Positions 14,301 through 31,499 of a DNA stretch of 32,013 nt are shown here, piece after piece. This stretch comes from a virus: the IMG/VR virus record IMGVR_UViG_3300023179_000334, positions 1 to 32,013 of that record; one strand, written 5' to 3'. Every line of letters begins with the position of its first letter. Within the stretch, counting starts at the first letter, position 1. The notes under the pieces are model-generated. The model was not told the DNA's origin. It saw nothing but the letters and a program-made list of their open reading frames with translations, and ran no database searches. Position numbers and translations under genes: made by a program.

Positions 14301-15239
14301 AACGACGGTGTGCCGGATAATCCTGCTCTGTTTGCCTCTATTGTAGCACCGGCCACTGCTATTAAAACAAAATTAGTATTTTTCCGTGAAGTACAAGATG
14401 CTGATAGATTCAAGCGTCTAGAACTGGTTGACAACGCCACTGTGGTGACCACATTTAATACCATGGCCCAGGCCAATCAAAATCTATCAGGATTTCTCAA
14501 TGGGCAGTTGTTTTTCTTGACCAGTGACCTAGTTTTTAAACAACTATCTATTTCTGGTACCACACGCAGTCTGGTCTCTCCCCAGCAGACCTATAAATTC
14601 TTTTTAGGTCGACAGGGACTTAATTATCAATATGTACACAATAGTCCCTATACCAATAGAATAGATCCCAGTATCAGCAACATTATTGATCTATATGTAC
14701 TGACCGCAGACTATAATTTGGCCTATCGTCAATGGATACAAGATACCTCAGGTAGACTGACTGAGCCTCGAAAATTAACCAGCACAGAATTGGCCAATGC
14801 CTACAGCTCATTGAACAACAGCAAGGTGTTGACTGATACACTAATTTTTAATTCAGCCAAGTTCAAGCCTCTATTTGGTAACAAAGCTGTTGAATCTCTG
14901 CAGGCTACCTTTAAAATAGTCAAGAATGCCAATCTCAATCTTAGTGACAATGATATCAAAAGCAGTGTTATTGCTGCCATTAACGAGTATTTTTCCAGTG
15001 ATAATTGGGATTTTGGAGAAACTTTTTATTTTAGCGAGCTCAGTGCCTATTTGCATAAGGCACTTAGTCCAGATATAGCCAGTATCATACTAGTGGCCAA
15101 AGATACACAGGTGGGATTTGGTGCACTCTATCAGGTCAATGCTGAACCACATGAATTGATAATTAGTGCTGCCACTGTGCAAGATGTAGAAATAATCAGC
15201 AGTGTTACTGCTGTGCAACTAAATCAAATTCGGATATAA
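11385..15239 (+). CDS. 6: Baseplate wedge protein gp6, enlarged by inserted modules
   Basis: The N-terminal 130 residues (TYPEDYNDFTESSEFIALID, LAFRADLNARENFLDTAERR, LARLVSYNPKRH) and the C-terminal region (about 1160-1284, including LSDNDIKSSVIAAINEYF and FYFSELSAYLHKAL) are characteristic of T4 gp6 and the related P2 gpJ family. gp6 dimers form the inner ring of the baseplate and drive its conformational change. T4 gp6 has 660 residues and this one 1284. The extra length lies in the middle: a GTTDFTRFGSNNN-type module at about 555-580, a cupredoxin-like sandwich at about 592-687, and further beta-rich sequence to about 1130. The ATG at 11385 has a late promoter upstream but only a weak ribosome site (CCGGG). 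The stop is 3 bp before the giant gene. Confidence 0.88.
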   Translation: MAITNRQTGLLAAENWKRVYQTFKEADFTAYDFETLRKSMIDYIKQTYPEDYNDFTESSEFIALIDLIAFLGQSLAFRADLNARENFLDTAERRDSILKLARLVSYNPKRHIPAMGYLKIDSVSTSETLSDSDGIDITNVVINWDDSSDENWLERFTLIINAALVSNQAVGRPGSSKKINNIRTDEYSINTLSSLVPVFRFESTVEGQKVSFEAVSATTSNQDYVYEAAPNTQRVFNILYRNNGAGNDSTNTGFFVYFKQGELNVLNLNIPEAVPNKVLDVDIDGINNTDVWLYTVDSLGTATDLWTQVPSAATVNIVYNKQNQRNLYQVNSKANDQISLVFGDGTFANIPQGSYRLYYRTGNGLTYKITPDEIRGIPIAIDYLSRSGRVETITIRASLKYTVATANARETLDDIKQRAPQQYYTQNRMVTGEDYNILPYTSFSNIVKVQAVNRTSSGISRYLDIIDGTGRYSSTDIFADDGVLYRENFLKTFTFRFDNYNDIQKLISGQLRDILTSPETLHYYYETVPGQAPIDTGIPPTDIFANRFYVIKLAGTTDFTRFGSNNNLEGTSFVANVSGRLIKNYTVINSATSSYRFSGAASGNNPDITLYEGDRLNFNVNTLGSPFWIKTLPGTGSTNYIVAGNISNNGISSGTVSWDTLGVEPGIYYYSSENYAAQSGNIIIQSQGTGQVRTLFRWVLGQSGDSSANGYFIYNFNPSAIGTAVNTRNRYLRPGALVLFVAPTGSYFDSNNNLVSGTPTRQNESTFLYASIVHVSGDGTNNGQGLYSDGSGPVVLNTRVPTGALVNVIIPHFVNSFNGDFAGLIIDYILGYRSFMLHYDINLLRWRIKNYSVSDTDYFISFVYNINNQNYTVSYRGINYLFHSPRRVNFYVDERQHIYDLENNRVVEDTIRILRNNSMADTVSLTQVGTATQYLYNVPLQQDYTWKIYKSKIDNDGYTDTSTVYLTYSDTNNDGVPDNPALFASIVAPATAIKTKLVFFREVQDADRFKRLELVDNATVVTTFNTMAQANQNLSGFLNGQLFFLTSDLVFKQLSISGTTRSLVSPQQTYKFFLGRQGLNYQYVHNSPYTNRIDPSISNIIDLYVLTADYNLAYRQWIQDTSGRLTEPRKLTSTELANAYSSLNNSKVLTDTLIFNSAKFKPLFGNKAVESLQATFKIVKNANLNLSDNDIKSSVIAAINEYFSSDNWDFGETFYFSELSAYLHKALSPDIASIILVAKDTQVGFGALYQVNAEPHELIISAATVQDVEIISSVTAVQLNQIRI
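13160..13445 (+). other. Cupredoxin-like module inside gp6 (copper ligands missing)
   Basis: Residues about 592-687 show NPDITLYEGDRLNFNV, then SPFWIKTLPGTG, then NISNNGISSGTVSW and a PGIYYYSSENYAAQSG ending. This is the strand order of the plastocyanin-like modules common in marine phage structural proteins (NPxITV..G..L.F.V, HPFWIKT, GVTNNG, LYYQCxxHxxM). The His, Cys, His and Met ligand positions read Ser, Ser, Asn/Tyr and Gln here, so copper binding is unlikely. Confidence 0.6.
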
Positions 15240-15242
15240 TGA

Positions 15243-18200
15243 ATGGCTGTTGCTCGTAAAACTCTGGATTTTTTACCAAGTGTATTTCAGTCTGACACTA
15301 ATAACAAGTTTCTAGGCAGTACCCTTGATCAATTGATCAACGAACCGGACCAGGTTCGTGTTGATGGTTATATTGGTCGTAGATTTGGAACCATTAGTTC
15401 AGGCGGTTATCTGCAGGAGCCAACCGCAGACCGGTCAAATTATCAATTGGAACCTTCGGTAGTGATAGGAGATCCTGGACAGGTCACACTAATTGGTGAC
15501 TATTCTGATACTATCAATCGTATAGACTACTACGGCGGTATTACCAGCAATCATGATCGTTTGTTTCGCAACCAGTACTATTCTTTTGATCCACAAATCG
15601 ATCTTGACAAGTTGGCCAACTACAGCCAATACTATTGGCTACCCAATGGACCATATGCAATCCAAATAGGTAGTAGTGATGTAAATAGTGCCAACAATTA
15701 TATAATAACCGGAACAGTTTCTGGGTATACAACCAATAACACTGGTGCTGCGGTCAACCCTGAGCTGCGTCTAGTACGTGGGCGTACCTATACATTCACG
15801 GTCAACGAACCCGGCAAGGCTTTTTGGATTCAGACTGAACCCGGTAACACTGGAGTCAGTGAATATGAACCCAATACCAGTACTAGATTTGTCTATGGTG
15901 TAACCAACAATGGTGTCAGTATTGGAGTAGTTACTTTTACTGTTCCTGCTGCTTCAGCACAGAACAGCTATTATCTAGACTCTCTAATAGACTATGTGGA
16001 TTTTGCCACATCTAATACATTTAGCAGTCTCGATGGAGCCAATTGGACCACACTAACAACCATAGACGGCGATAGCCTCTACCCTCAAGATCGTTATGTG
16101 ATCTTTACCACCACCAGTAATAGTTCGGTTGATTGGACAACCAGAACCGGTGCTACGGTGCCTACCAATCAACGCCGCGGCCTATGGCGTATCAACATAG
16201 ATATATTCAGCAAACTAACACTGACCTATGTACGTGGGTTAGATACCTCTGGTCGTATCTCTATTAGACACGGTATCAACAATCAAGGAAAAGAATTTGT
16301 CTACAACGGTACAGTGCTTACCGAACTCTATCCTCCTACTGCCCCCTTGACCACTCTCTATTATCAAAACGGTAGCGACACATACAAACAGGGTCTTATA
16401 CGTATTGTTGATCAAGACACTGACATTATCAATGTAGACAGCGATATTATTGGTCAAGACAACTACAGCTTCAATGGTCTGGTACTAAGCAATGGAATGA
16501 AGATCACTTTTGACAACTCGGTCTTGCCTTCCGGTTATAGAAATAGAACATTTATTGTTGAAGGGGTTGGTACCGCAATAAAACTAATTGACTTTGAACG
16601 ATTGGTCGCGCCCGAGGTGGAGATACCTGGGCTTGGTATACCCTTTGACAGCACACCCTTTGACAGCGTTGGGTTTGACCAAGCTGTTGGAAGTAGTGTT
16701 GAGCCTGACTACATAGTGGCCAATCGTGCCAGCATAGATGAAAATGCCTGGGCACGTGGGAATCGTTGGTTTCATATAGATGTTATTCGCCAGGCTTCCC
16801 TGGCCAATAATTTTGCTCCAAACTTTGGAACTCGCGCCACAAGACCCATTATAGAATATCGAGCCAACCTACAATTGTTTGGATCGGGAAGAATTGGCAT
16901 GGGGCTAATCGATCAGTTTTTTGACAGCACTACCACATTGTTTGTCAATGGTAGAACTCAACAGCTGACCGATATCACTGCTCAAATTGACAATGTCAGC
17001 TATAAAACTCTCCGGGCTCAGAAGTTAGCTGTTGAACCCGGCCAGCTGGTAGTGTTTGGTAACGATATCAATTCCACTAGACGTGCAACCAAATACCTGC
17101 TGGGCACTAAGGATCAGTCTGCTGCGGTCAGTTATGATGGTACTCTGATTGGGTCAGTTACCACACGAGCAGGATCGACTCGTGTAGTAAGTTATAACCT
17201 AAACACCAACTTTTTGGTACAGCTGAGTATTGGGTCGTATATCTATAGCTCAGCTGGTCTGTATCTAGGACGGGTGGCACAGATATACAACAACTATGAA
17301 TTGGATTTGGTTGATAGTCTATCAATCAATTACAACAATCTAACAGGTCTGCGCTATAATGACAGTCGTCTGGCCTATACCAGTCTAGAGCTGGCATTGC
17401 CCTACAGCACACTGGTTGTGCGTTCAGGGATCAATCGCGGACGATCCTATTATCTGACCACGGACAATACCTGGCGGCTAGGACAACAAAAAACTTCTAT
17501 CAATCAGTATCCATATTATGATGTTATACTGCCAGTCAGTGATCAAAGTCTTGGTAGTTTCTATTATAACAGTAGATTTGTTGGTACAAAAATATTTGGC
17601 TATACCTTGGGTGCTTCAAGGGATCCTGTACTGGGGTTACTAGTCAAGTATATCAATAATTCGGGTACCATTGGTGATTTGGAATTTACCAACTATTATG
17701 ACACTGACAAATTTGACTACAGTCTGGATCCCTATGGACTTGACATAGCCACCGGTGCTGTTAGCCAAGGTGTACTAAGACTAATTGAAGATCGTTATAC
17801 CTATTCAATAACCAACTGTTGGGCAGCAGTGGACACACACAGTCGACAGTATCAACATATTCAGACTGAATATACTGGCAGTACCAATTACTTTGAAATT
17901 GGTGCTAGCCCAATTACAGTAGGTGTCGACAGTGCCGCTGAACCATCTCTCAAAGTCTATATCAACAACAACCTACTAATACGTACTAGACCCGGCAACA
18001 CCGATTCCTATAGTTATCAGGCTACCGGTCTGAGCAAAACTCTACGCATTGATCTAGCATTGTTGTCTGTTGGAGATAGAATTGACATATTTGTATTGTC
18101 CAATGATCAAAGCAGTCAAGGATACTATACGCTGCCAAAAAATCTAGAGTTCAATCCGCTCAATGAGACCATTGAACGTGTGAGCCTGGGTCAGATGCGA

Positions 18201-21200
18201 AATCATCTGATAGTCAAGGCATCAGGACTGCAGGGCCTATTAGGTAATCCTCGTGGTGCCAATAACATAAGAGATATTGATCATAGCCTACGAGCTGGTA
18301 CAATACTGCAACATTCGGCTCCTGTGGCATTGGCCACTGCATCAATCATTGACGAACGTGTGAATTTTTATTCAGGCCTTGACTATGCACGTCGCGAATA
18401 TACAAGATTTAAAAATCGTTTTTTAGAACTATCGGTTTCATTACCAAACATCAATCCTGTGGATCCAATTGGTGGAGTAGATCTAATACTGTCCTCGATT
18501 AACTCGGTAAAAAACAGCAGTTTTGCCTTTTACTACAGTGACATGTTGCCCTATGGCAATGATTATCGAACTCTGCGCTATCGCATACTCAATACCACAG
18601 TTCGTAACTATACCATAAGTTTAATATTCTCTGCCGACAGCGCCAGCAATAGAGCTGTAATGTTGTACCTGAACAACAGTCTATTGGTCATTGGCAGAGA
18701 TTATACATTCAGCGAGACCAGTCCAATGGTCATATTATCGGATTCGTTGGTCCTGGCAGTCAACGACAATTTGGAAATACGTGAATACAACAACACCGAC
18801 GGTTGTTTTATACCAGAAACTCCAACCAAGCTGGGATTACATCCCAAATATATACCTGCACGTTATCTGGATGATACCTATGTTGACAATATCTATGTGA
18901 TTCAAGGTCACGATGGTAGTATCATTCCGGCCTTCAACGACTACAGAGATAATTTTATACTAGAACTTGAAAATCGCATCTACAATAATATCAAAGTCAA
19001 CTATAACCAGGTTCGACCAGTTTTTGACGCACTGTTGCCTGGACGGTTTCGCAGCAGTGATTACACACTAGATGAGTTTAATTCTATTGTGACCACTGAA
19101 TTTTTACGCTGGGTCGGCACTAATCAGACCAATTATCTGGAAAACAACACGTTTCAGAGCAACAATGAATTCACATGGAATTTTAGTTTATGCAGAGATC
19201 GAAATGATCAGAAGGTTCCTGGTCATTGGCGAGGTATTTATCGTTACTTCTATGACACCGATCGCCCGCACACACATCCATGGGAAATGCTGGGTTACAC
19301 GGTTAAACCAACCTGGTGGGACACCTATTATAGTTGGACCAACAACATCAAACGCACAGCATTGATCACTGCCTGTACCAATGGCTACACACAAAATCCG
19401 GCATCTAGTACGCCCACAGTGGCCAACCCAGTGTACGCCAGAGCTGGATTTGCAGATATAGTTCCGGTGGATTCCACTGGTAATCTACGTAGTCCTTTAA
19501 TTCTTATCAAACAGCACAACAGCGCCACATTTTCACAGAGTTGGGCCATAGGTGATCTAGGTCCAGCAGAGTCAGCCTGGCGTCGTAGTAGCGAATATCC
19601 ATTTGCTCTGCAAAAGGCATTTAGCCTGATGCGCTCCAGCTATTTTGCTATTGCAGCCAATATCAACAACTATTATGAATTTGAAATCGGCACTTTTCGA
19701 CAATATCTGGTCGACACAACCAGACGACGGCTGACTCTAGATGATATCAAAATCAATGGAGCACCAGACAGCGCAGATAGTATAATACGTTCGGCCAGCT
19801 ATTTCAATTGGATACATGGTTATCTAACTAGCCTAGGTATTGATGCTGGCGCTCGATTGACTGAATACATTGGTCAGATACGTGTTAATCTCACACATAA
19901 ACTAGCTGCTTTTACAGACAAGAGTTATATTAATGTGTTGACTGAGCAGACCAGTCCGGGCAGTAGTAATCAGAGTATAGTTATACCCGATGAAGATTAT
20001 TTTGTACATCTTAATCGCAGTGCTGCCATTGCAGTGGTAAAATACAGCGCAGTAATTGTACAAAAAACTCCCACTGGATTTGCTATCAGTGGATACGACC
20101 TTGACTATCCCTACTTTGGTGTAATATTAGGCCAGCGCAGTGGCAAGTCCTATTCAATACAGGTCCTGGACCAAACAGTCACAGTGTTTGAAGATTTTGA
20201 AACCACCAGCTATCTAATTCCCTATGGTAGTGAATTAACCAGTCTGCAGCAGATGGCCGAATTTCTAGTTAGCTACCAGCGTTATCTGCAGAGCCAAGGA
20301 CTAATATTTGATCAATATGACAGTGATTTGAATCTGGTACGTGATTTTACTCTGAGCATACGTGAATTCCTCACATGGAATCTGCAAGGTTGGCGAGAAA
20401 ACAATATTATTGTGCTAAGTCCGCTTGGTGATAGTATCAACATCTACAGCGACAACTCGCAAATTGATCATATACGCGGTAACACCAGTGGTTCTAGACT
20501 GCTAGGTATTAATTTTAATCCCATAAGGAGTACCGATTTTACAGTACTGCGTGATGGATTTATAACCAAGTTACTGACTGTAAGCGGGCAAACAGTGGCC
20601 TTTGCCGAATTTAATCTTGTGCAATATGAACATGCACTGGTGTTTAACAATCGTACAGTGTTTAACGATATTGTATATGAACCTGCTCTTGGTACCAGGC
20701 AACTAAGACTGCGTATAGTTGGCAGTATTACCAATAATTGGGATGGGCAATATACACCGCCGGGTTTTGTCTACAATGACTCAAAGGTAGACGATTGGGT
20801 ACCAGGTCATGATTATAAAAAAGGCGATATTGTCAAATACAAAAATCTATATTATAGTGCAGTTAAGGATACTATTGCCACAGACTCATTCAATATCAAC
20901 AGTTGGTATCGATTGGAATCTGCACCTAGGTCTGGACTACTCAAAAACTTTGCCACCAATGCTGCTCAGAGTCAAGAGATCTACAATATAGATCAGCCTC
21001 CCTATGATGAACAATTGTTTAAATTTAGTTCCGGATTAATAGGATTTAGAAGTCGTGAATATCTGACTAATCTTGGTATCAGTCCAATAAGTCAAACTAA
21101 ATTTTATCAGGGATTTATACACGAAAAGGGCACTCGCAGTGCTGCATCGGCATTGGCCAGAGCACAGGTTGATGGTCAATCGCATGAGATTGAAATCTAT

Positions 21201-24200
21201 GAAGAGTGGGCTGCTAGAGTTGGTGAATATGGCGCAGTTGATGCCAAACCCTCGATTAAATTTGCAATTAGTGACACCATAACAGACATTGATCCAGTAA
21301 CACTGCTATTTCAATCAGAGCCCAATGAAGTCACTGATTCCAGAATCATAGCAGTAAGAACCAGTGATTTACTCAGTGCTACTAGAGATTTTGATGGAAA
21401 TTTGTTTAGATACCGTGATCCTGTACCAGTTCGTAACTATAGAATTGAGCTGTTTGGTGATGGAATTATCTGCGGCAGAAATCCTGCCTTTAAGGCAGAT
21501 GCACTATTCTATGCCTGTCTAACGGATCAGCAGACAGGTCGTGTGACCAATCCACCAGACAGTCTGCTATTTGATAGTCTAAATCAAAAATTCCGTGTAA
21601 GTGTGACCACTCGCAGCCGTGAAGGGTCAACCAGCACAGAATTACTGCAAGGTACCGATGGTGTCAATGCTGCCTGGCCTGACAATATTCAGGCCGATAT
21701 AGTGGTGATCAATCACGGTCTAATGGATGCCAAATTTGGCACACCATTAGATGTCTATAGACAAAATCTCACAAATATGCGTAATCTATTGACAGCCGAT
21801 CAGATTGTCATATGGATGACTCCTACGAAAATTGATGTCGCCAACAGTCATGTCAATTGGGCATCATTTGGGGGTACTACCAATATTGATGCCTATGCCC
21901 AGGTCATGCGAGATGTGGCCAAAATCTATGGCGACCCAGTGGCCGATGCCAATGGTATTAACAATTGGCTTTTTTATCTAAGAAACAATATATCTTTTGT
22001 CTATGAGAATGAGACTGTGGTACCCGGCGACGATATCAGTTTTACCATTGCAACGCCAGACCAGACTGCAGTCTACTATTATACTGTGGTCGATGCTTCA
22101 TATCTAATAGAATCGTCGGCATTGTATGTGGATTCCGGCGGGTCAATTGACCTGACAGTTACCAGTGACCTGACAGGTCAAACTCTCTACTGGACCATAG
22201 AAACACCCACAGCTGAGGATCTGTCTAGGACTGTGGTTGATACCGATTTTAGTGATGGTATACATCCAAGACAGGAAGGATACAATCTGTTGATCAATCA
22301 GGTACTGGCACCAACAATTGAAGCTGCCATAACAAAATCTATTAGACTTGCTAATGCCTATTATCCCGATGACTTGATCACAGCCGGGTATGCATCAGTC
22401 AACGAAGTGGATGCACAATTATTTGATATCAACAATCTAAAATCATTTGGTAGGCAGATAGTCAGCAGCATAAGCAATGGATTTAAGATTTGGGTAGCCA
22501 AAGACTATAACTATCAATGGCAAGTCTATAGGTTATTTAAAATTGCCGGCACGATCACAGATGTTCAAACCGACCTGGATCGTAAAATCATATTCGTTGT
22601 CAACAATCAACATGGATTGGTCGCAGGCGACTACTTTGCTGTACGCGGATTAGGCACCAATATTGATGGATTCTATGTGGTGTTTAGCAGTGATGATTTT
22701 ACTTTGACAGCAGTAGATGATAATGTTTACGAAACTATACGCAATTTTAACCTGGTCAGCGATACTGCAGAACTATACGACTTTCAACCATTGAGGTTTC
22801 CAACTCTAGCGGCCAGAGATGCTGCCAGTCCCAGGCATGGTTGGATCAGCAGCGATATAGTCTACATAGATGACATTGGTGACGTCAATTCCAGCTGGGC
22901 AGTGTATGACAGAATTGACAGATACAATATTGCTGCATCTGATTCTATCCTTGAACCCGATAGTGATATTGATTTTAGTGTAACCAGTCCGTTAGATGAG
23001 GAAGTAGATTTATATTACTCAATACTCAGCAATTATCAATTGGATTACACAGTTCCGATATTTACTCCTGGAATTGGGGCATTATTCAGAGTATTGGCCC
23101 CCGACAACCGCAAATTATATTACACTATTCAGAACGCCATTAATATTCCTGAAGTTGAACAAACTGCACCATTGGACATCTATGCCGGGCAGGATTCCTG
23201 GACCCTGACCAGACAACAGATCAGTAGAATTGACATCGACAGTGTCAATGAAATATTTCTATATAGCAAAAAAGATCAGAAAATATTAGCTAGATTGGAT
23301 ATTTTGGATCCAGCCAAGGGTCGAATCTTAGGTGCGGCTCAGGCCGATATTGACTATACTACCGAGCACGATCCTGCCAAGTACAATGTTGGTACCGATC
23401 AAGATGTCAGCATTGCCAGTGATTTTTATTGGGCAGCCGAACATGTGGGACAGTACTGGTGGCATGTGGGGCGCTGCAGATTTATCAATTACGAACAGGA
23501 TTCGTTGTCCTATAGACTAGACAACTGGGGTAGTCTATTTTCAGACAGTAGTGTAGAAATATATGAGTGGATCGAAAGTGATCTATTGCCATCGGAGCAT
23601 GTGGAGCAAGGTCGCAAAGGACTACCACTCTATGCCAACAATCAGGCCTATACTGAGCACGCTTTTGTAAATCCGGAAAATAATATAGTCACTGTGCGCT
23701 ACTATTTCTGGGTACGTGATACTAGAACACCAGCTAGCAACAGTAAAATCTACAGCAGTCACGACCTAGAATCTGTTATCAAAAATCCAAGACTGACCGA
23801 TATTGCCTATGCTGCACTATTAGATCGCAATGCGATTGCCTTGTACAATGTCGAACCATACATCAAAGGGTCAGACACAGTTTTACACATTACCTATAAT
23901 AGGAATAGCCAGGCCGGTCTTATACATACCGATTATCGGTTGATTCGTCAAGGCAGCGAGCTTGATCAGTTTCCTATTAGAATAGAAAGCAAGTTAATTG
24001 ACAGTTTGTGCGGGTTAGATTTACTGTCACGCACAGTGCCAGATGCAAGACTCAACAGCTACGAACAAATTGGACTAGATATTCGACCACGACAGACTCT
24101 AATTGTCAATCGTAGGGCCGCTGTGGAAAATGTAGTTCGTTATGTCAATCAACTGTTGATCAGTCGCCCATTGGCCAGTAGAATCATTGATCGTGACCGC

Positions 24201-27200
24201 ATATACAGCGACTATTTCTATAGTCAAGAGCCTATACCCGCTAGTAGCGAATACGACCAGATTGTAGACTACTACAGATCTGATATTGGGTCTGACCTAC
24301 GTACACCAACGCCTACAGCCAATCTTAGAGTTTTGGTTCGTCAAGATTTGACTGCAGGTGGTTATTGGACTATTAGAAAGTATGATATCACTAATACTGA
24401 TCCATTGATTGAACGTCGTTATAGATTAGTACGCAGACAAAGCTATGACACCAGACGAATTTGGAATTTCGTGGATTGGTATGCTGCTGGCTATTCGTCT
24501 AGAACAGTAATCAATAGATCTGTAGATAACAACACAGAATTGGCCAAACTTGACCTACAGGTCAATGAAATCATTCGTGTTACAAACAGGCGTACCGAAC
24601 TGATAATTGGTACCTACCTTGGCAGTGACAGCAGACCCGGACTGTTTGAACTCTATCGGGTTGATCTTGTTGACAATGTCAAGCAGTTGACATTGATTGG
24701 TCTTGAACAAGGTACCCTGCAGCTGACCGAACAACTGTTTGGCGATCTAGGCTGGGACGGTGCAGGGTTTGACAGCGACTACTATGACTTTAACTTTGGG
24801 GTTGAATTTAGAGCAGTGTTGCTAGGACTCAAACAAGACGTTTTTATCAATGACCTGGCTCTGTACTATAATCTCACACTGTTCTATTTGGTAGAATACA
24901 TACTTAGCGAGCAAAAAAATATCGACTGGATGTTTAAAACCAGTTTTGTCAGTGTGCTACATCGTGTACAAGGACTGCTGCAATCGCCTAATTTTGTTCG
25001 TGATAGACAGTCCAGTTATGAAAAATATCTCAACGAAGTCAAGCCCTATCGTGTCAAGATTCGTGAGTATATTACCAGTTATTCTAATTTAGAATTGACA
25101 CGATTGCACATAACCGACTTTGATTTACCTGCCTATTGGGACAGGCAGTTACAGATATTGCGTAGTCCCAATAGCGAATATCCTGTTGAAGATCAAGCTC
25201 GTTTACAAGGTTCCAAGTACCTAGACTGGACCAATAATCATAAATACCTGTTGGGCAGACTAGATATCTACGCCACTGGTTATGGTTATGAAGCTGATCC
25301 TACACCTCAAGTGGCCGTGATCAGACGTGATCTTCAGACTGGATCTAATGCCAGTGCTCGTATACAGGTCAATAATCTAACATCCGGTATTGGTAAAGTC
25401 TACATAGATAACCCTGGAGGAAACTATACACTGACTCCCTATGTACAGGTACTTGGTATCGGCGGCACCGCGGTAAGCGATATGCTAGTGCACAACTACA
25501 AGATTACCTCAGTGGGCAATGCCAATACCACGATAACCACTGCCAATCTCAATAATCTAAACACATCCACTGTGACTTTTAGTTCAAACAGCAGCGGATA
25601 TATAATGCATAGAATACGTCGCAGCGATGGGCAGGTCGTATTTACACGTCAATACGATTTGGCCAATGAAAATCGCCCTGGGTACATTGGATACAACAGC
25701 AGAGATCTAGCATCGGATCTAAACAGAACTAGCGGTGACTTTGTTGTAGCTTTGCATACATTTGGCGAAACCTATTTTAATAGACTAGGATCGACTGTTA
25801 TTGCCTATAGGGTACTAGCATCAACCCAATCGATTGCTGCATCGGGATCCTTGAATCTTACATTTAGTTCCTACGACCCCGGGGAAACACTCTACTGGAC
25901 TATTGAATCAGTTTTTGTCTATAGTGTAGTAGCATCAACTGAGTCAATAGCTCCACTGGGATCCTTGAATCTTACATTTAGTTCCTACGATCCTGGAGAA
26001 ACACTCTACTGGACTATTGAACCAGTTCTGGCCAATAGTCCTAGCGTTCCTGCCGTTATACCCACAGTTGCTGTTCCCGACATCAGTTTGGATCTAGCCC
26101 TCTACCGCTGCGGCGCTAGCCCAGGTATATTTGCCAATAATACAATATTTGTTCCTGGCGGTGCCTATGCATTGGTAGGTATACCCGGAGTTGGTGCTGG
26201 CCACGGAATTGAAATTTTTAGTGGTCAATATGCCAATGATCCAATGGCATTTGCCAGTATAGATTTTCGTATAAGACAAGGCAGTCTTACTCCTATAGCT
26301 ACTCAACCTCCTATAGTACCTTTCTACAGTCTATTGGCATCAGCTGAGAGTGTTGATGCTGCTGCTGTGCTTACGATTAAAATTTTTAGTCTATATCCCA
26401 ATCAAACACTGTATCTGACCATAGAAACTGCTACGGCTGACGATCTAGCCAGAGTTTACCAATATCCAAGAACTTTTAATCTGGACATAACAAATACCTT
26501 GTCTACGGTTAATCCTGCAAGATCAGCTCTATTGGTTCCTAGACTCTATAACGGCACTGTGAGAAAATTGCGTACCAGCATGAAATTTGATCGTATAGCC
26601 ACACGTGCCACAACCACTCCTGTCTATGACTGGGTCACGGGTGGCTATGATGGTGAACCAATTGATTACCAATCTATCAACTCACCTGTGGAAACTGGAG
26701 TGTTTGATCGTACCTATGCACCGGGTACTCTGCTGCGCTATCAAGGACAGGCCTATCGTGTGCTAAGAGAAACTGCCAGCGGACCTGTATTTCCTTTTGG
26801 TAATATGGAGCTTATTGGTTCCGATGTACAATACAGCGACCCACGATATCTACACGGCTACTTTACTAATGCCAATGAGCGTATATTGGCCTATTACCAA
26901 CCTTCTGCTGATATGGTTCCTCTGGAATTAAATAGGCTAGTACCCGGTGTGGGAACAATTGTCAGTTCAGCACAAAGTACCAGTATTAACTATACCGAAA
27001 CAGTGCTGGTTGGTGATACTTTTAGCAGTACTGTGGGTATCAGCCCCGGTAACATACAGTTGGTTGGCGGCGGCTTTGTTGACAGTCTGTTTAGTTATGC
27101 ACCCGAAGAGCTGTTGCCAGGCTCAACCTATGATGTATTGAGCATAAAAGTTATTACTAACAGTGCAACCAATACCGGGTTCAGAATTAGCCGAGACATT

Positions 27201-27518
27201 TCGGGCAATGTGTTCTATCATAATGTCAGTCCTGCCTATACAACTATACTGGCACAGGATTTGAATATAACAGATGCTAATATTGTAGTGGCCGATGGTA
27301 CAGTGCTGCCACCGACTGCTACCGGAATTGAGCCCAGAGTGATCTATATCAATGGCGAACGCATAGCCTATCGTACACGTAATGCAAATATTCTAACAGA
27401 TCTTCGTCGTAGTTATGGTGGTACCGGAGTTCCTTTGCGACATCAGGCCAATAGTAATGTTGAAGTAATAAGTATTACCACAGAATTTCCTGCACCTACA
27501 CTGGCAGCAGCATTATAA
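15243..27518 (+). CDS. Giant multi-domain virion protein at the gp7 position (probable baseplate wedge)
   Basis: With 4091 residues this is the largest gene in the window. It starts 3 bp after gp6, where T4 has gp7 (1032 residues), but I see no confident alignment to T4 gp7. N-terminal residues (KTLDFLPSVFQSDTNNKFLG, then NHDRLFRNQYYSFDP and LANYSQYYWLPNGPY) are typical of very large structural proteins of marine T4-like phages. Inserts recognised in order: cupredoxin-like module (about 153-248), a Trp-rich GHWRGIYRYFYDTDRP block (about 1320), carbohydrate-binding-like module (about 1849-1896), degenerate SGNH hydrolase (about 2064-2365) containing Ig-like modules, more Ig-like modules near 2560, 3524-3599 and 3695-3738, and a second carbohydrate-binding-like module (about 3796-3860). 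No signal peptide or membrane segment is seen. It is probably a baseplate arm that also contacts the cell surface. Wedge assignment rests on position. Confidence 0.6.
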   Translation: MAVARKTLDFLPSVFQSDTNNKFLGSTLDQLINEPDQVRVDGYIGRRFGTISSGGYLQEPTADRSNYQLEPSVVIGDPGQVTLIGDYSDTINRIDYYGGITSNHDRLFRNQYYSFDPQIDLDKLANYSQYYWLPNGPYAIQIGSSDVNSANNYIITGTVSGYTTNNTGAAVNPELRLVRGRTYTFTVNEPGKAFWIQTEPGNTGVSEYEPNTSTRFVYGVTNNGVSIGVVTFTVPAASAQNSYYLDSLIDYVDFATSNTFSSLDGANWTTLTTIDGDSLYPQDRYVIFTTTSNSSVDWTTRTGATVPTNQRRGLWRINIDIFSKLTLTYVRGLDTSGRISIRHGINNQGKEFVYNGTVLTELYPPTAPLTTLYYQNGSDTYKQGLIRIVDQDTDIINVDSDIIGQDNYSFNGLVLSNGMKITFDNSVLPSGYRNRTFIVEGVGTAIKLIDFERLVAPEVEIPGLGIPFDSTPFDSVGFDQAVGSSVEPDYIVANRASIDENAWARGNRWFHIDVIRQASLANNFAPNFGTRATRPIIEYRANLQLFGSGRIGMGLIDQFFDSTTTLFVNGRTQQLTDITAQIDNVSYKTLRAQKLAVEPGQLVVFGNDINSTRRATKYLLGTKDQSAAVSYDGTLIGSVTTRAGSTRVVSYNLNTNFLVQLSIGSYIYSSAGLYLGRVAQIYNNYELDLVDSLSINYNNLTGLRYNDSRLAYTSLELALPYSTLVVRSGINRGRSYYLTTDNTWRLGQQKTSINQYPYYDVILPVSDQSLGSFYYNSRFVGTKIFGYTLGASRDPVLGLLVKYINNSGTIGDLEFTNYYDTDKFDYSLDPYGLDIATGAVSQGVLRLIEDRYTYSITNCWAAVDTHSRQYQHIQTEYTGSTNYFEIGASPITVGVDSAAEPSLKVYINNNLLIRTRPGNTDSYSYQATGLSKTLRIDLALLSVGDRIDIFVLSNDQSSQGYYTLPKNLEFNPLNETIERVSLGQMRNHLIVKASGLQGLLGNPRGANNIRDIDHSLRAGTILQHSAPVALATASIIDERVNFYSGLDYARREYTRFKNRFLELSVSLPNINPVDPIGGVDLILSSINSVKNSSFAFYYSDMLPYGNDYRTLRYRILNTTVRNYTISLIFSADSASNRAVMLYLNNSLLVIGRDYTFSETSPMVILSDSLVLAVNDNLEIREYNNTDGCFIPETPTKLGLHPKYIPARYLDDTYVDNIYVIQGHDGSIIPAFNDYRDNFILELENRIYNNIKVNYNQVRPVFDALLPGRFRSSDYTLDEFNSIVTTEFLRWVGTNQTNYLENNTFQSNNEFTWNFSLCRDRNDQKVPGHWRGIYRYFYDTDRPHTHPWEMLGYTVKPTWWDTYYSWTNNIKRTALITACTNGYTQNPASSTPTVANPVYARAGFADIVPVDSTGNLRSPLILIKQHNSATFSQSWAIGDLGPAESAWRRSSEYPFALQKAFSLMRSSYFAIAANINNYYEFEIGTFRQYLVDTTRRRLTLDDIKINGAPDSADSIIRSASYFNWIHGYLTSLGIDAGARLTEYIGQIRVNLTHKLAAFTDKSYINVLTEQTSPGSSNQSIVIPDEDYFVHLNRSAAIAVVKYSAVIVQKTPTGFAISGYDLDYPYFGVILGQRSGKSYSIQVLDQTVTVFEDFETTSYLIPYGSELTSLQQMAEFLVSYQRYLQSQGLIFDQYDSDLNLVRDFTLSIREFLTWNLQGWRENNIIVLSPLGDSINIYSDNSQIDHIRGNTSGSRLLGINFNPIRSTDFTVLRDGFITKLLTVSGQTVAFAEFNLVQYEHALVFNNRTVFNDIVYEPALGTRQLRLRIVGSITNNWDGQYTPPGFVYNDSKVDDWVPGHDYKKGDIVKYKNLYYSAVKDTIATDSFNINSWYRLESAPRSGLLKNFATNAAQSQEIYNIDQPPYDEQLFKFSSGLIGFRSREYLTNLGISPISQTKFYQGFIHEKGTRSAASALARAQVDGQSHEIEIYEEWAARVGEYGAVDAKPSIKFAISDTITDIDPVTLLFQSEPNEVTDSRIIAVRTSDLLSATRDFDGNLFRYRDPVPVRNYRIELFGDGIICGRNPAFKADALFYACLTDQQTGRVTNPPDSLLFDSLNQKFRVSVTTRSREGSTSTELLQGTDGVNAAWPDNIQADIVVINHGLMDAKFGTPLDVYRQNLTNMRNLLTADQIVIWMTPTKIDVANSHVNWASFGGTTNIDAYAQVMRDVAKIYGDPVADANGINNWLFYLRNNISFVYENETVVPGDDISFTIATPDQTAVYYYTVVDASYLIESSALYVDSGGSIDLTVTSDLTGQTLYWTIETPTAEDLSRTVVDTDFSDGIHPRQEGYNLLINQVLAPTIEAAITKSIRLANAYYPDDLITAGYASVNEVDAQLFDINNLKSFGRQIVSSISNGFKIWVAKDYNYQWQVYRLFKIAGTITDVQTDLDRKIIFVVNNQHGLVAGDYFAVRGLGTNIDGFYVVFSSDDFTLTAVDDNVYETIRNFNLVSDTAELYDFQPLRFPTLAARDAASPRHGWISSDIVYIDDIGDVNSSWAVYDRIDRYNIAASDSILEPDSDIDFSVTSPLDEEVDLYYSILSNYQLDYTVPIFTPGIGALFRVLAPDNRKLYYTIQNAINIPEVEQTAPLDIYAGQDSWTLTRQQISRIDIDSVNEIFLYSKKDQKILARLDILDPAKGRILGAAQADIDYTTEHDPAKYNVGTDQDVSIASDFYWAAEHVGQYWWHVGRCRFINYEQDSLSYRLDNWGSLFSDSSVEIYEWIESDLLPSEHVEQGRKGLPLYANNQAYTEHAFVNPENNIVTVRYYFWVRDTRTPASNSKIYSSHDLESVIKNPRLTDIAYAALLDRNAIALYNVEPYIKGSDTVLHITYNRNSQAGLIHTDYRLIRQGSELDQFPIRIESKLIDSLCGLDLLSRTVPDARLNSYEQIGLDIRPRQTLIVNRRAAVENVVRYVNQLLISRPLASRIIDRDRIYSDYFYSQEPIPASSEYDQIVDYYRSDIGSDLRTPTPTANLRVLVRQDLTAGGYWTIRKYDITNTDPLIERRYRLVRRQSYDTRRIWNFVDWYAAGYSSRTVINRSVDNNTELAKLDLQVNEIIRVTNRRTELIIGTYLGSDSRPGLFELYRVDLVDNVKQLTLIGLEQGTLQLTEQLFGDLGWDGAGFDSDYYDFNFGVEFRAVLLGLKQDVFINDLALYYNLTLFYLVEYILSEQKNIDWMFKTSFVSVLHRVQGLLQSPNFVRDRQSSYEKYLNEVKPYRVKIREYITSYSNLELTRLHITDFDLPAYWDRQLQILRSPNSEYPVEDQARLQGSKYLDWTNNHKYLLGRLDIYATGYGYEADPTPQVAVIRRDLQTGSNASARIQVNNLTSGIGKVYIDNPGGNYTLTPYVQVLGIGGTAVSDMLVHNYKITSVGNANTTITTANLNNLNTSTVTFSSNSSGYIMHRIRRSDGQVVFTRQYDLANENRPGYIGYNSRDLASDLNRTSGDFVVALHTFGETYFNRLGSTVIAYRVLASTQSIAASGSLNLTFSSYDPGETLYWTIESVFVYSVVASTESIAPLGSLNLTFSSYDPGETLYWTIEPVLANSPSVPAVIPTVAVPDISLDLALYRCGASPGIFANNTIFVPGGAYALVGIPGVGAGHGIEIFSGQYANDPMAFASIDFRIRQGSLTPIATQPPIVPFYSLLASAESVDAAAVLTIKIFSLYPNQTLYLTIETATADDLARVYQYPRTFNLDITNTLSTVNPARSALLVPRLYNGTVRKLRTSMKFDRIATRATTTPVYDWVTGGYDGEPIDYQSINSPVETGVFDRTYAPGTLLRYQGQAYRVLRETASGPVFPFGNMELIGSDVQYSDPRYLHGYFTNANERILAYYQPSADMVPLELNRLVPGVGTIVSSAQSTSINYTETVLVGDTFSSTVGISPGNIQLVGGGFVDSLFSYAPEELLPGSTYDVLSIKVITNSATNTGFRISRDISGNVFYHNVSPAYTTILAQDLNITDANIVVADGTVLPPTATGIEPRVIYINGERIAYRTRNANILTDLRRSYGGTGVPLRHQANSNVEVISITTEFPAPTLAAAL
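15700..15985 (+). other. Cupredoxin-like module inside the giant virion protein (copper ligands missing)
   Basis: Residues about 153-248 read NPELRLVRGRTYTFTV, KAFWIQTEPGNTG, then VTNNGVSIGVVTFTV and an NSYYLDS ending, the same strand order as the module in gp6. The His of HPFWIKT is Lys/Ala here and the C-terminal Cys-His-Met loop is absent, so it is a structural sandwich and not a copper protein. Confidence 0.6.
20785..20928 (+). other. Carbohydrate-binding-like module (CBM5/12-like) in the giant protein
   Basis: Residues about 1849-1896 read DDWVPGHDYKKGDIVKYKNL followed by YYSAVKD and a closing NSWYRL. This follows the CBM5/12 pattern (W-pG-xY-xxGDxVxYxxxxYxA ... W) with the aromatic residues that stack on sugars. 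Binding to a surface glycan is inferred from family, not shown. Confidence 0.5.
21432..22335 (+). other. Degenerate SGNH/GDSL hydrolase domain with Ig-like insertion, in the giant protein
   Basis: Residues about 2064-2365 show SGNH blocks in order. Block I is IELFGDGIICG (2072-2074 Gly-Asp-Gly, where active enzymes have Gly-Asp-Ser). Block II is SREGSTSTELLQG, with its Gly. Block III is INHGLMD (2159-2162, where active enzymes have Gly-x-Asn-Asp). Block V is DGIHP, with Asp2338 and His2341 kept. The nucleophile Ser and the oxyanion Asn are therefore both replaced, which predicts loss of esterase activity. Two Ig-like modules (21999-22226) are inserted between blocks III and V. Confidence 0.65.
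21999..22226 (+). other. Two Ig-like modules inserted within the SGNH-like domain
   Basis: The first copy reads ETVVPGDDISFTIATPDQTA then VYYYTVVD. The second reads SALYVDSGGSIDLTVTSDL then GQTLYWTIE. Both follow the pattern S-v-x-x-G-s-l-x-f-t-v...g-q-t-L-Y-w-T-I-E seen repeatedly in this protein and in two downstream genes. They split the hydrolase fold just before its Asp-His block. Confidence 0.55.
22921..23031 (+). other. Ig-like module in the giant protein (diverged copy)
   Basis: Sequence AASDSILEPDSDIDFSVTS then EEVDLYYSILSN follows the same module pattern as the copies at 21999-22226 and 25812-26039, but is more diverged: Trp-Thr-Ile-Glu of the typical ending is replaced by Tyr-Ser-Ile-Leu. 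Confidence 0.45.
25812..26039 (+). repeat. Tandem 114-bp repeat encoding two Ig-like modules
   Basis: Two 114-bp copies (25812-25925 and 25926-26039) encode 38-residue units containing GSLNLTFSSYDPGETLYWTI. A 33-bp core starting at GGGATCCTTG is identical in both (25844-25876 and 25958-25990), and a stretch beginning AAACACTCTACTGG is also shared, while the 5' third differs more. This indicates a fairly recent duplication followed by divergence or partial gene conversion. Confidence 0.9.
26322..26454 (+). other. Further Ig-like module in the giant protein
   Basis: YSLLASAESVDAAAVLTIKI then NQTLYLTIETATADDLARV matches the module pattern. Its ending resembles that of the second copy in the SGNH region (TIETPTAEDLSRT), so these two may derive from one another. 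Confidence 0.5.
26628..26820 (+). other. Second carbohydrate-binding-like module in the giant protein
   Basis: Near the C-terminus, VYDWVTGGYD is followed by FDRTYAPGTLLRYQGQAYRV and FGNMELI. The Y-aPGtLlrYqGqaYrv stretch resembles the CBM5/12-like pattern at 20785-20928. The match is weaker, because the closing tryptophan is not seen. Confidence 0.35.
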
Positions 27519-28337: not shown

Positions 28338-29513
28338 ATGGGATATATAATTAATTTAACCAACGGTGATCCACTGGTCACCGTTGATGATGGTAGAGCA
28401 GATCTAAGTAGTACCAGTATTGCTCTGATCGGTAAAAACTATGCAGGTTATGGCGAATATCTAAATGAAAATTTAGTACATCTGTTGGAAAATTTTGCCA
28501 AAGACACTGCACCAAGCAATCCATTGGTTGGACAATTATGGTTTGATAAAAGTCAGGGCGTACTCAAAGTCTACAATGGAACCACACATATTCCAGCTGG
28601 ATCTTCTATTGTCAACGACAATACCAGCAGCAGCATGCATTATTTGACATTTGTCAGCTCTTCTACTAATAATCCTCCCCCTGTGTTAAAAACAGATTCT
28701 ATCAAGGGGCTAACCTATCAGCCCAGTACTGGTAATATGGCACTAAACAAATCAACGGGTGGAGTGGCCAAATTTGAAATCAATGCAGGTCGTAATGATA
28801 GAAATTATGCAACGGTGACCGCAGCCAATTATAGTACTGATGTAAACGAAACACTGCTTAGATTAACAGGCGAAGATGGTAAAAATGCCTGGGTCCAAAT
28901 TGATACCTATCAGTCAGGTCCGAATAGTCCTCTTTCCACTGGAGGCATACTATTTAGAAAAAGTCGAGGTACCAGTCAGACACCTGAATCACTGCAAAAC
29001 GATGACTATATTGGCGGCCTAGCTGCTCTTGGATTCAGTGGCAACCAATTTTTGCCCACTGGCGTTTTGGTATTTTATGCCAGCGGCAACTATAACGCCA
29101 ATTCCACACCCAGTGGTCTAAGAGTATTTTTAACAAATTCAACTTCAACGATCACACGAGTCACTGCCGATTTCAAATCTAACGGTGATCTAGATGTCAT
29201 GGGTGATGTGGTTGCCTATGCTGTGTCGGACAGTAGATTAAAAACCAATATACAGCCACTCAATGGTGCACTAGACCGTGTTTCCAGCATATCGGGGGTT
29301 ACATTTAACTGGAACACATTGGCTGATGGTAAAGATACACAAATTAGACAGGTCGGGGTACTGGCTGATCAAATACGTCAGGTATTGCCCGAAGCAGTAC
29401 AAGAAAAAAGCACAGGTTATCTTGGAGTTGACTATCAAAAAATTGTACCACTGTTGATTGAAGCTGTTAAAGAATTAAGATTAGAAGTGCAACAGTTAAA
29501 AATTGCTCAATAG
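28338..29513 (+). CDS. Tail fibre protein with C-terminal S74 intramolecular chaperone
   Basis: The 391-residue protein has an N-terminal module (GYIINLTNGDPLVTVDDGRA, then GEYLNENLVHLLENFA and NPLVGQLWFDKSQGVLKVYN) widespread in fibres of marine T4-like phages and probably used for attachment. A beta-rich shaft follows. The C-terminus from residue 297 (SDSRLKTNI, then GVTFNWN, QVGVLADQIRQVLPEAV, GYLGVDYQKIVPLLIEAVKE) is a Peptidase_S74/endosialidase chaperone domain. In characterised members it trimerises the fibre and then cuts itself off at a conserved Ser at the domain start; Ser297 is the likely site here, which would release about 95 residues. The final helix is a short coiled coil. GGGAG lies 10 bases before the ATG. 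The host receptor is unknown. Confidence 0.82.
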   Translation: MGYIINLTNGDPLVTVDDGRADLSSTSIALIGKNYAGYGEYLNENLVHLLENFAKDTAPSNPLVGQLWFDKSQGVLKVYNGTTHIPAGSSIVNDNTSSSMHYLTFVSSSTNNPPPVLKTDSIKGLTYQPSTGNMALNKSTGGVAKFEINAGRNDRNYATVTAANYSTDVNETLLRLTGEDGKNAWVQIDTYQSGPNSPLSTGGILFRKSRGTSQTPESLQNDDYIGGLAALGFSGNQFLPTGVLVFYASGNYNANSTPSGLRVFLTNSTSTITRVTADFKSNGDLDVMGDVVAYAVSDSRLKTNIQPLNGALDRVSSISGVTFNWNTLADGKDTQIRQVGVLADQIRQVLPEAVQEKSTGYLGVDYQKIVPLLIEAVKELRLEVQQLKIAQ

Positions 29514-29522
29514 GATAGTATA

Positions 29523-31499
29523 GTGAGTCTGCCCTCAACTGGTCGTATATCGCTTGGCAATGTCCAGTCTGAATTTGGTGGTTCCAATCCTATACGCCTA
29601 AGCGAATATTATGCCGGTGGCAGCTATGTGGTAGTCGGTACTTCGGGCACCAGTGGGTCGATACCCAGCACAGGCAGTATCAGTTTGGGAAGATTTCGCG
29701 GTAGTGCAACTTCGATTTCGCCTGGAACCTATTCAATATCAGTGACCCCAACCAGTGTTCCAGCAGCTGGTAGTCTGACGTTCACGGTCAGCAGTGTCAT
29801 TGGTTCTCAGAATCTTTTCTACACTGTAGAAGAGCGCGACATAATTGATCTAGGTATTAGTGTAGACCCTGTTGTTGCCGAAGTTGGGCAAAGTGCAACA
29901 TTCAGTTGGTTTACCAGTAATGCCACAAATGTTGTTTATCGTATAGGCAGTATTACAGATACACCAGTTGCCATACCCTTAAACGGAACAATTACCACGC
30001 CCACATTTAGTGCAGCCAATATTGGTATAGCCAATGTATTTGTTACAGCATCTAATACCGCACTATCAAGTTCTAACATTGTTACCAAAATTGCCAGTAT
30101 TAGTGTGGTGCCCAGCACGGCAATTACCACTACGACCACAACCCTGGCACCAATAAAGACTGGTACTGGATATTTGGTTAATCCATCTACCACTTACACT
30201 AACCTGATTGGTGTGCCATTGCCTGACGATCCAGTTTATCTGATGTTTAGAATGTTAGGTGCTGCTGGGGGCGGTGGCGGTGGCGATCGCAGCAGTATTG
30301 GAGGATCAGGCGGAGGTGGTCATTTGATCATCGGCACTGTGTTATTACCAGCAGGCACCAAGGTATTACGTGGTGGTGTGGGTGCCGGCGGCAGTAGAGC
30401 TGGTAGTAGTGACCGATCGTTGGAAAGTAGCGTACAAAATGGTCTGGGCGGAACTGGGTACAGTTGGCCACAGTTATCAGCAGCAACAGCCGGAGCTGGT
30501 GGTGCAGGAGCACCAGCAGGTACTCGAAACAGAAGTGGATCAGGCGGTGGCGGTGGTGGGGGAACCATATTGGGGTTTACCTTAAACGGAATAGAAATAC
30601 CAATAGCTGCGGCAGCCGGTGGTGGTGGTGGGGGCGGCGGTAGCGATTATGTGGCCGCCGGCGGTGGTGCCGGACGGATTGGTCTAACTACAATTGGCAA
30701 TGTTAGAACTCTAGTTACAGCAGTGGGCAGTTCGGCCACACGGTTGACCAATGATGGCGGCGGTGGTGGTGGCGGTGGTGGTGGAGCAGGCGAAGCCGGC
30801 ACTGGCGGAACTGACCGAACTTCTGGCGGCACAGGCGGATCGGCTGGGCAATCATTGCAGAATATTTCAGTTGTTCTTAACAGAGGTAGTTATGCTGACT
30901 TTACGGTCTATCGTCCAGCTGGAGATCCTAGCCTTGTGACCGATCCAGCAGCTAGAGATAGTGACTATTTTGGGCGCGGTGGGCGCGGTGGATTGCAGTA
31001 CATCGTTAGTGATTCCGGTAGCGGCGGTGCCATTGCAGTATATTGGACCAGTAATGTCGCTGTGGCACCGAACAATTATAATTTAGTCCCTAACTTTCCA
31101 GCTCCAGACCTGACGGTGTTATTGAATGGCACTAACATAACGGTTAGTACGATTGACAGCACTGCTTATCTAAACATTTATAGAAACGGTACTTATGAGA
31201 CCAATAACAATCTAAGTCGTGTAGACTGGATCAATTTACCAAGTACCTATGTGGGTAATTTTTATGAAATTTATTTATCAACATCTAATGTCACCGGCGG
31301 AGCCACTGTGGAAACCTTAGGCGGAACTCTTAACACATGGACGGCTCTATCTGCATATTCGAGCACAAATCCAATTTATGTGCGTTTACTATCGGGTTCC
31401 ATAACCTATAGTGCCACAGTCGTAGTCACACTGCGTAAAATTGGCACTACAACCGAATATGAATCAAGGTTTACTCTCGAAACCAGTTCATCAATATAG
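29523..31499 (+). CDS. Glycine-rich tail fibre adhesin (GTG start)
   Basis: The start is GTG at 29523; AGGA at 29512-29515, 7 bases upstream, supports it, and no ATG competes. The first 60 residues hold two copies of a short module (LPSTGRISLGNVQSEFGG and IPSTGSISLGRFRGS) typical of marine phage fibre N-termini. An Ig-like module comes next (VPAAGSLTFTVSSVIGSQN with LFYTVE), then another beta domain, a Thr6-Leu-Ala-Pro linker (from residue 202), and a long poly-glycine region (about residues 247-443) with GGGGGG runs between short hydrophobic strands. That pattern recalls the glycine-rich adhesins of T-even phages (gp38 type), whose loops between glycine stretches bind the receptor. A C-terminal beta domain of about 130 residues follows. 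Host-range function is inferred from this resemblance. Confidence 0.72.
   Translation: MSLPSTGRISLGNVQSEFGGSNPIRLSEYYAGGSYVVVGTSGTSGSIPSTGSISLGRFRGSATSISPGTYSISVTPTSVPAAGSLTFTVSSVIGSQNLFYTVEERDIIDLGISVDPVVAEVGQSATFSWFTSNATNVVYRIGSITDTPVAIPLNGTITTPTFSAANIGIANVFVTASNTALSSSNIVTKIASISVVPSTAITTTTTTLAPIKTGTGYLVNPSTTYTNLIGVPLPDDPVYLMFRMLGAAGGGGGGDRSSIGGSGGGGHLIIGTVLLPAGTKVLRGGVGAGGSRAGSSDRSLESSVQNGLGGTGYSWPQLSAATAGAGGAGAPAGTRNRSGSGGGGGGGTILGFTLNGIEIPIAAAAGGGGGGGGSDYVAAGGGAGRIGLTTIGNVRTLVTAVGSSATRLTNDGGGGGGGGGGAGEAGTGGTDRTSGGTGGSAGQSLQNISVVLNRGSYADFTVYRPAGDPSLVTDPAARDSDYFGRGGRGGLQYIVSDSGSGGAIAVYWTSNVAVAPNNYNLVPNFPAPDLTVLLNGTNITVSTIDSTAYLNIYRNGTYETNNNLSRVDWINLPSTYVGNFYEIYLSTSNVTGGATVETLGGTLNTWTALSAYSSTNPIYVRLLSGSITYSATVVVTLRKIGTTTEYESRFTLETSSSI
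30126..30143 (+). repeat. Threonine-codon repeat (Thr6 linker) in the glycine-rich adhesin
   Basis: Six consecutive Thr codons of mixed ACN usage followed by Leu-Ala-Pro form a linker between the Ig-like and glycine-rich parts. A longer version of the same linker ending Ala-Ala-Pro is in the next gene at 31777. Confidence 0.8.
30261..30852 (+). repeat. Poly-glycine (GGN) repeat tract in the adhesin
   Basis: Several runs of GGC/GGT codons (for example near 30268-30283, 30544-30564, 30618-30642 and 30758-30785) encode Gly5 to Gly10 stretches. The tract is a local G-rich block on the plus strand in an otherwise A+T-rich genome and offers many short homologies for recombination or slippage. Confidence 0.85.

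Follow-up and report, generated by a model that had tools for sequence, protein, structure and literature searches.

A probable SGNH pseudo-esterase within a giant virion-associated protein of jumbo phages

SGNH hydrolases rely on a few conserved sequence blocks. The Ser of block I is the nucleophile, and the side chain of the block III Asn contributes to the oxyanion hole (PMC9487903). In OatA, replacement of this Asn abolished the activity; some families manage without it. Atypical sites can also work, as in the SASA enzymes, which lack the block III Asn, and in PatB1, which makes use of a block II Arg; the Ser is kept in both (PMC9487903). In the CE20 carbohydrate esterases, the SGNH domain is discontinuous, and the beta-sandwich ancillary domain inserted into it lies beside the active site (PMC12313940). 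Pseudoenzymes are known as well. The Arabidopsis protein ERMO3/MVP1/GOLD36 (At1g54030) is a GDSL pseudoenzyme in which the block I Ser has become Gly (PMC4757993), and it is also regarded as a pseudoenzyme elsewhere (PMC3498303).

In phage tails, esterase activity has been demonstrated for two SGNH proteins of Klebsiella prophages (PMC13123978, which also cites G7C gp63.1). Phage-tail SGNH domains are predicted to be capsule or O-antigen deacetylases largely by their fold. Among the open-licence papers searched, none reports a phage-tail SGNH pseudoenzyme. Here, a probable domain of this kind is described in a stretch of 32,013 nucleotides of viral DNA (IMG/VR record IMGVR_UViG_3300023179_000334), referred to as the window.

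The giant protein and its neighbourhood

Two adjoining genes set the scene.

15243-27518, + strand: giant virion/baseplate-associated protein of 4091 aa that carries the SGNH domain; match to the virion structural protein family phrog_10938, E=5e-207
11385-15239, + strand: gp6-like baseplate wedge protein, immediately upstream of the giant; phrog_10646, E=1.5e-285

The reading frame of the giant has no internal stops. When it was searched in two parts, the phrog_10938 profile matched with E=4.6e-207 and 7.7e-76. Its conserved blocks are about 22-41% identical to the giants of RaK2, 121Q and PA5oct-like phages, and the neighbourhood agrees with its membership in this family. Relatives of the giant are found in 121Q, RaK2, PA5oct, Phosso, Atu_ph07 and SCTP-2, mostly with a wedge gene immediately 5' of them. 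Further baseplate-wedge and hub-lysozyme genes lie near the window giant, and it is from this neighbourhood that the label 'baseplate protein' would follow. The PA5oct record carries an ESI-MS/MS note for the homologous giant, which points to a location in the virion.

Two conserved blocks of the giants are separated by a stretch of variable content, from 230 to 1550 aa in length, and the SGNH domain is located in this stretch. It is absent from the cultivated giant-bearing jumbo phages that were examined; the host range can, therefore, not be read from them.

Two other genes of the window deserve mention. A tail-fibre-like ORF (28338-29513) has an intramolecular chaperone of the Peptidase_S74 type at its end (E 2.7e-15). 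On the minus strand, a late sigma factor-like ORF (2972-4792; phrog_12791, phrog_234) is split by an apparent intein. This putative intein starts with CVDAETQALT and ends with YLTGN, followed by a Thr; LAGLIDADG_3 matches it weakly (E 0.009).

The SGNH domain and its catalytic positions

The domain, its catalytic positions and its insertion are placed as follows.

21429-22340, + strand: SGNH (GDSL-like) domain, aa 2063-2366, catalytically incomplete; from Pfam, AlphaFold2, Foldseek and homologues
21462-21464, + strand: codon GGA of Gly2074 at the block I nucleophile position (FGDG); from the alignment with 27 homologues, with Ser in every complete one
21723-21725, + strand: codon ATG of Met2161 at the block III Asn position (NHGLMDA); from the alignment with homologues
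22254-22265, + strand: Asp2338 to His2341, block V DGIH, kept; from the alignment, with codons GAT (Asp2338) and CAT (His2341) in DGIHP
21996-22241, + strand: insertion between block IV and block V, aa 2252-2333, with a beta module; from alignment A4

Residues 2063-2366 match both PF13472 (Lipase_GDSL_2, E=3.4e-12) and PF00657 (Lipase_GDSL, E=1.2e-6), and both matches pass the Pfam cut-offs. An AlphaFold2 model of residues 2055-2372, for which an alignment of natural homologues served as the input, shows an alpha/beta core of high confidence and an insertion that is modelled with low confidence. By Foldseek, its best matches in the PDB are SGNH/GDSL esterases (1yzf, 7ddy, 7c23 and 4q7q; E 2e-6 to 6e-8), and the model of a complete homologue, L180, gave a similar list. 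The tail spikes of PP99 and Possum are among the best viral structure matches. In a profile alignment, the block I, III and V positions pair with the Ser, Asn and His of 1yzf. The initial annotation had proposed the SGNH fold from the sequence; the model and the profile matches confirm it, and residues 2063-2366 are a genuine SGNH domain.

The residue numbers assigned earlier (Gly2074, Met2161, Asp2338 and His2341) proved exact when the codons were checked. The Asp and His that a competent SGNH hydrolase needs in block V are present, and both the block I nucleophile and the block III oxyanion Asn are missing. Block II is recognisable, with REGSTS in the window versus QGNSTS in complete relatives, and the equivalent of the oxyanion Gly is ambiguous. 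As the domain has no nucleophile, the standard acyl-enzyme mechanism is impossible, and the domain is predicted to be inactive as an esterase.

It had also been suggested that another residue has taken over catalysis. The domain would then still be an esterase, with a different residue or water as its nucleophile. Asp2338 and His2341 are retained, Ser2337 adjoins Asp2338, Cys2077 lies three residues from the Ser position, and atypical SGNH active sites do exist (PMC9487903, PMC12313940). However, Cys2077 is conserved in complete enzymes too and, hence, is no replacement. Ser2337 is the only window-specific hydroxyl residue beside a catalytic residue, but it sits on the acid/base loop and not at the nucleophile position. 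Blocks I and III contain no window-specific Ser, Thr or Cys, and no alignment column gains a nucleophile-type residue alongside the loss of Ser. Met2161 additionally removes the oxyanion Asn side chain. This suggestion finds no support and is very improbable. In all likelihood, the window domain is a pseudo-esterase that is dead yet retained.

Ahead of block V, some 80 residues (2252-2333) break into the domain; they contain a beta module of which the giant has further copies. The AlphaFold2 confidence in this insertion is mostly <50. None of the other 17 rows of alignment A4 has an insertion at this point; many have a longer module-bearing insertion right after block I. With a profile core of 31 aa, five copies of the module were detected in the giant and one in the ORF at 29523-31499.

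22128-22217, + strand: beta module copy 1, aa 2296-2325, within the SGNH domain; profile search, E 6e-12
22965-23024, + strand: copy 2, aa 2575-2594; profile search
25830-26036, + strand: copies 3 and 4, aa 3530-3598, within an ILEI-like stretch; profile search
26349-26441, + strand: copy 5, aa 3703-3733; profile search

The single copy outside the giant (29754-29834) lies in a neighbouring ORF of 658 aa that has no Pfam or PHROG match. The ILEI-like stretch (25572-26312; aa 3444-3690) is homologous to the ILEI region found in the L180 fibre and is split into two halves by copies 3 and 4. Pfam gives no ILEI match in the window, even after the inserted modules are excised. A link between catalytic loss and the insertion of beta modules was considered and dropped, as L175 and L177 are incomplete though their domains have no insertion.

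Two Cys residues of the domain may also be mentioned. The first lies three residues past the nucleophile position (FGDxxxC); it is conserved whether or not a member is catalytically complete, but L230 lacks it. The second is present in all 18 rows of alignment A4; it follows the first by 15 residues in the window, and elsewhere the spacing varies with insertions. A disulphide between them is possible.

Homologues, ancestry and selection

As a single sequence, the window domain found no match in IMG/VR. Scans with alignments were needed, and they yielded 27 usable homologues besides the window. The SGNH-bearing ones are all metagenomic contigs, and counts of variants include near-identical contigs such as L177/L205 and L183/L185. 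In five of the 27 (L180, L181, L182, L187 and L239), the domain is N-terminal in separate fibre-like proteins of 1254-1769 aa, with the catalytic Ser, Asn, Asp and His intact in each. L180 additionally has ILEI and laminin-G domains, and L187 has ILEI, which is in keeping with a fibre-like nature. In the remaining 22 and the window, the domain occupies one shared site of the giant. Three of these giants (L203, L208 and L222) are complete and 20 are incomplete. An early survey of 14 giants had suggested that none has the full catalytic set; this was refuted when further scans found L203, L208/L214 and L222.

The Ser/Asn/Asp/His positions of the incomplete giants read GMDH (window), GINY, SMDH, SEDH, SRDH, STDH, GNDH, GNDY, GYDF or NNDI. 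Activity is still conceivable for those that keep Ser, Asp and His and have an Arg at the Asn position. The initial annotation had pointed to a comparison of GDS with GDG among homologues. In this comparison, Ser is present in all complete homologues, Gly is found in several giants, and at least five changes at this position are required.

In a tree of 195 giants built on the conserved upstream block, the 31 that bear the SGNH domain fall into a single clade (support 93), so that one change suffices; its sister is L016 plus L054 (support 61). In both of these, the giant gene is divided into two ORFs of about 2275 and 1271 aa (3973-14624 in L016, 3976-14633 in L054). The site is empty in the relatives L015, L016 and L054. 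L015 reads ...IFLDRP and continues across the empty site with IGLTYETDIKSAGYVN, versus ...LFRYRDPV, the SGNH domain and ...YYPDDLITAGYASVN in the window. A single clade of SGNH giants, with empty-site relatives outside it, indicates that the domain was acquired once.

The tree of the SGNH domain itself was built after removing the catalytic columns. The minimum number of changes on it is five for Ser, six for Asn and two for His. The AU test rejects a single clade of all Ser-less rows (p=5e-95) as well as one of all incomplete giants (p=1.4e-5). Change counts alone carry no direction; losses and not gains are favoured because the full catalytic set is found in the fibre-type outgroup and in part of the ingroup. 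It would follow that the giants lost Ser on at least five independent occasions. L230, which has Gly, pairs with the complete L203 (support 93/84), and on this tree its loss of Ser is recent. The window joins L177/L205 with a branch support of 84/80 only.

The fold appears to be maintained after these losses. Among L188, L191 and L192, all three without Ser, Asn and His, the pairwise dN/dS (NG86) of the domain core is 0.07, 0.15 and 0.11. Among L183, L184 and L185, which lack only Asn, it is 0.03-0.04, an approximate value owing to synonymous saturation, and the complete pair L180/L181 gives 0.11. Such low values in broken members mean that the broken domains are not drifting. For a pseudoenzyme, residue loss is seen in the window and purifying selection in other broken members; close relatives of the window are lacking, and the selection on its own copy is extrapolated from those members. 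Of the earlier view of a dead esterase fixed in the tail, the first part is well supported, given the SGNH fold, the missing nucleophile, the repeated inactivation in relatives and the purifying selection on broken members. Fixation as one event does not hold, since L203, L208 and L222 are intact at the same site and Ser was lost several times.

A functionless, decaying remnant, or substitutions that are errors of sequencing or assembly, might be imagined for a domain that has lost several catalytic positions and comes from a 32-kb metagenomic fragment. Yet the frame of 4091 aa is open, FGDG is seen again in the independent contigs L175, L186, L188, L190, L204, L210 and L230, and the dN/dS values of the Ser-less members given above are low. 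Such an origin is hardly credible. That the domain was acquired once, lost its Ser independently in several lineages including that of the window, and is kept under purifying selection as a pseudo-esterase is, by comparison, well supported and probable.

Conservation by itself is of limited use in this argument. Of the 107 columns invariant in complete fibre-type relatives, 40 are also invariant in ten distinct giants, so conservation alone does not statistically single out the catalytic positions; the weight of the case is borne by the tree and by what the catalytic residues are known to do.

Possible roles and known counterparts

The most probable history is as follows. An SGNH domain of the carbohydrate-esterase type, like those with which some fibre-like phage proteins begin, was inserted once into the variable stretch of the giant, in one clade of jumbo phages. 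In some lineages, all the catalytic residues are still in place, and these domains are predicted esterases. Several other lineages, including that of the window, independently lost Ser, and often the oxyanion Asn and His, with the fold still under purifying selection. More speculatively, the retained pocket (FGD, TRS, WPD, NHG and DGIHP) may bind a cell-surface glycan without cleaving it, and the beta modules inserted beside it may affect access or display.

In the broken members, FGD, the CG that follows it, TRS, WPD, NHG and the HP..GY-type residues are invariant or nearly so, with single exceptions in L230, L191 and L232. This fits a pocket that is kept, and equally a folding requirement that is kept. 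The main rival reading is a purely structural spacer or scaffold, without a ligand, whose fold is kept for packing and for the display of beta modules. The stretch between the conserved blocks tolerates very different lengths and contents, many giants manage without the SGNH domain, and the domain has taken up beta modules at two different places, all of which suit a spacer. Against this, the near-invariance of FGD, NHG, WPD and HP..GY, motifs that line the pocket in SGNH folds, goes beyond any obvious packing need, though packing could still explain it. A spacer is a serious contender that we nevertheless find rather doubtful. Glycan binding is tentatively preferred as the role of the window domain, with a chance that may approach even. 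Conversion to a sugar-binding device, as the initial annotation envisaged, is plausible. The wider reading, in which the giant-protein esterase of this jumbo-phage clade was repeatedly converted from a receptor-modifying enzyme into a non-cleaving receptor binder, is possible and is put forward with some reserve.

If that wider reading is true, these phages offer a natural series for a tail enzyme becoming a lectin. As intact and broken versions occur at one position of one protein, the passage from enzyme to binder can be tested with natural sequences. There is also a practical side: the fold is clear here, yet one or more catalytic residues are missing from 20 of the 23 giants with the domain at this site, and annotation by fold would therefore overcall esterases.

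Compared with the SGNH/GDSL superfamily at large, the window domain has the same fold, the same block order and the block V Asp and His; it differs in the block I Gly for Ser, the block III Met for Asn and the interruption by a beta module. The giant belongs to the same protein family (phrog_10938) as those of RaK2, 121Q and PA5oct-like phages, whereas the cultivated members examined have no SGNH domain. CE20 provides a precedent for a beta domain inserted in an SGNH domain (PMC12313940), but the CE20 enzymes are active, and any likeness of fold to the window module, which is modelled with low confidence, would be tentative. Like the window, ERMO3/MVP1/GOLD36 is a GDSL pseudoenzyme with Gly for the block I Ser, although it is a plant endomembrane protein unrelated to phage tails. 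The phage tail deacetylases (G7C gp63.1, Pectobacterium PP99 and Possum, and the Klebsiella prophage fibres) likewise carry an SGNH domain in a virion tail protein. They are enzymes of fibres or spikes for which activity has been reported or proposed, whereas the window domain lies inside a giant baseplate-associated protein and has no nucleophile.
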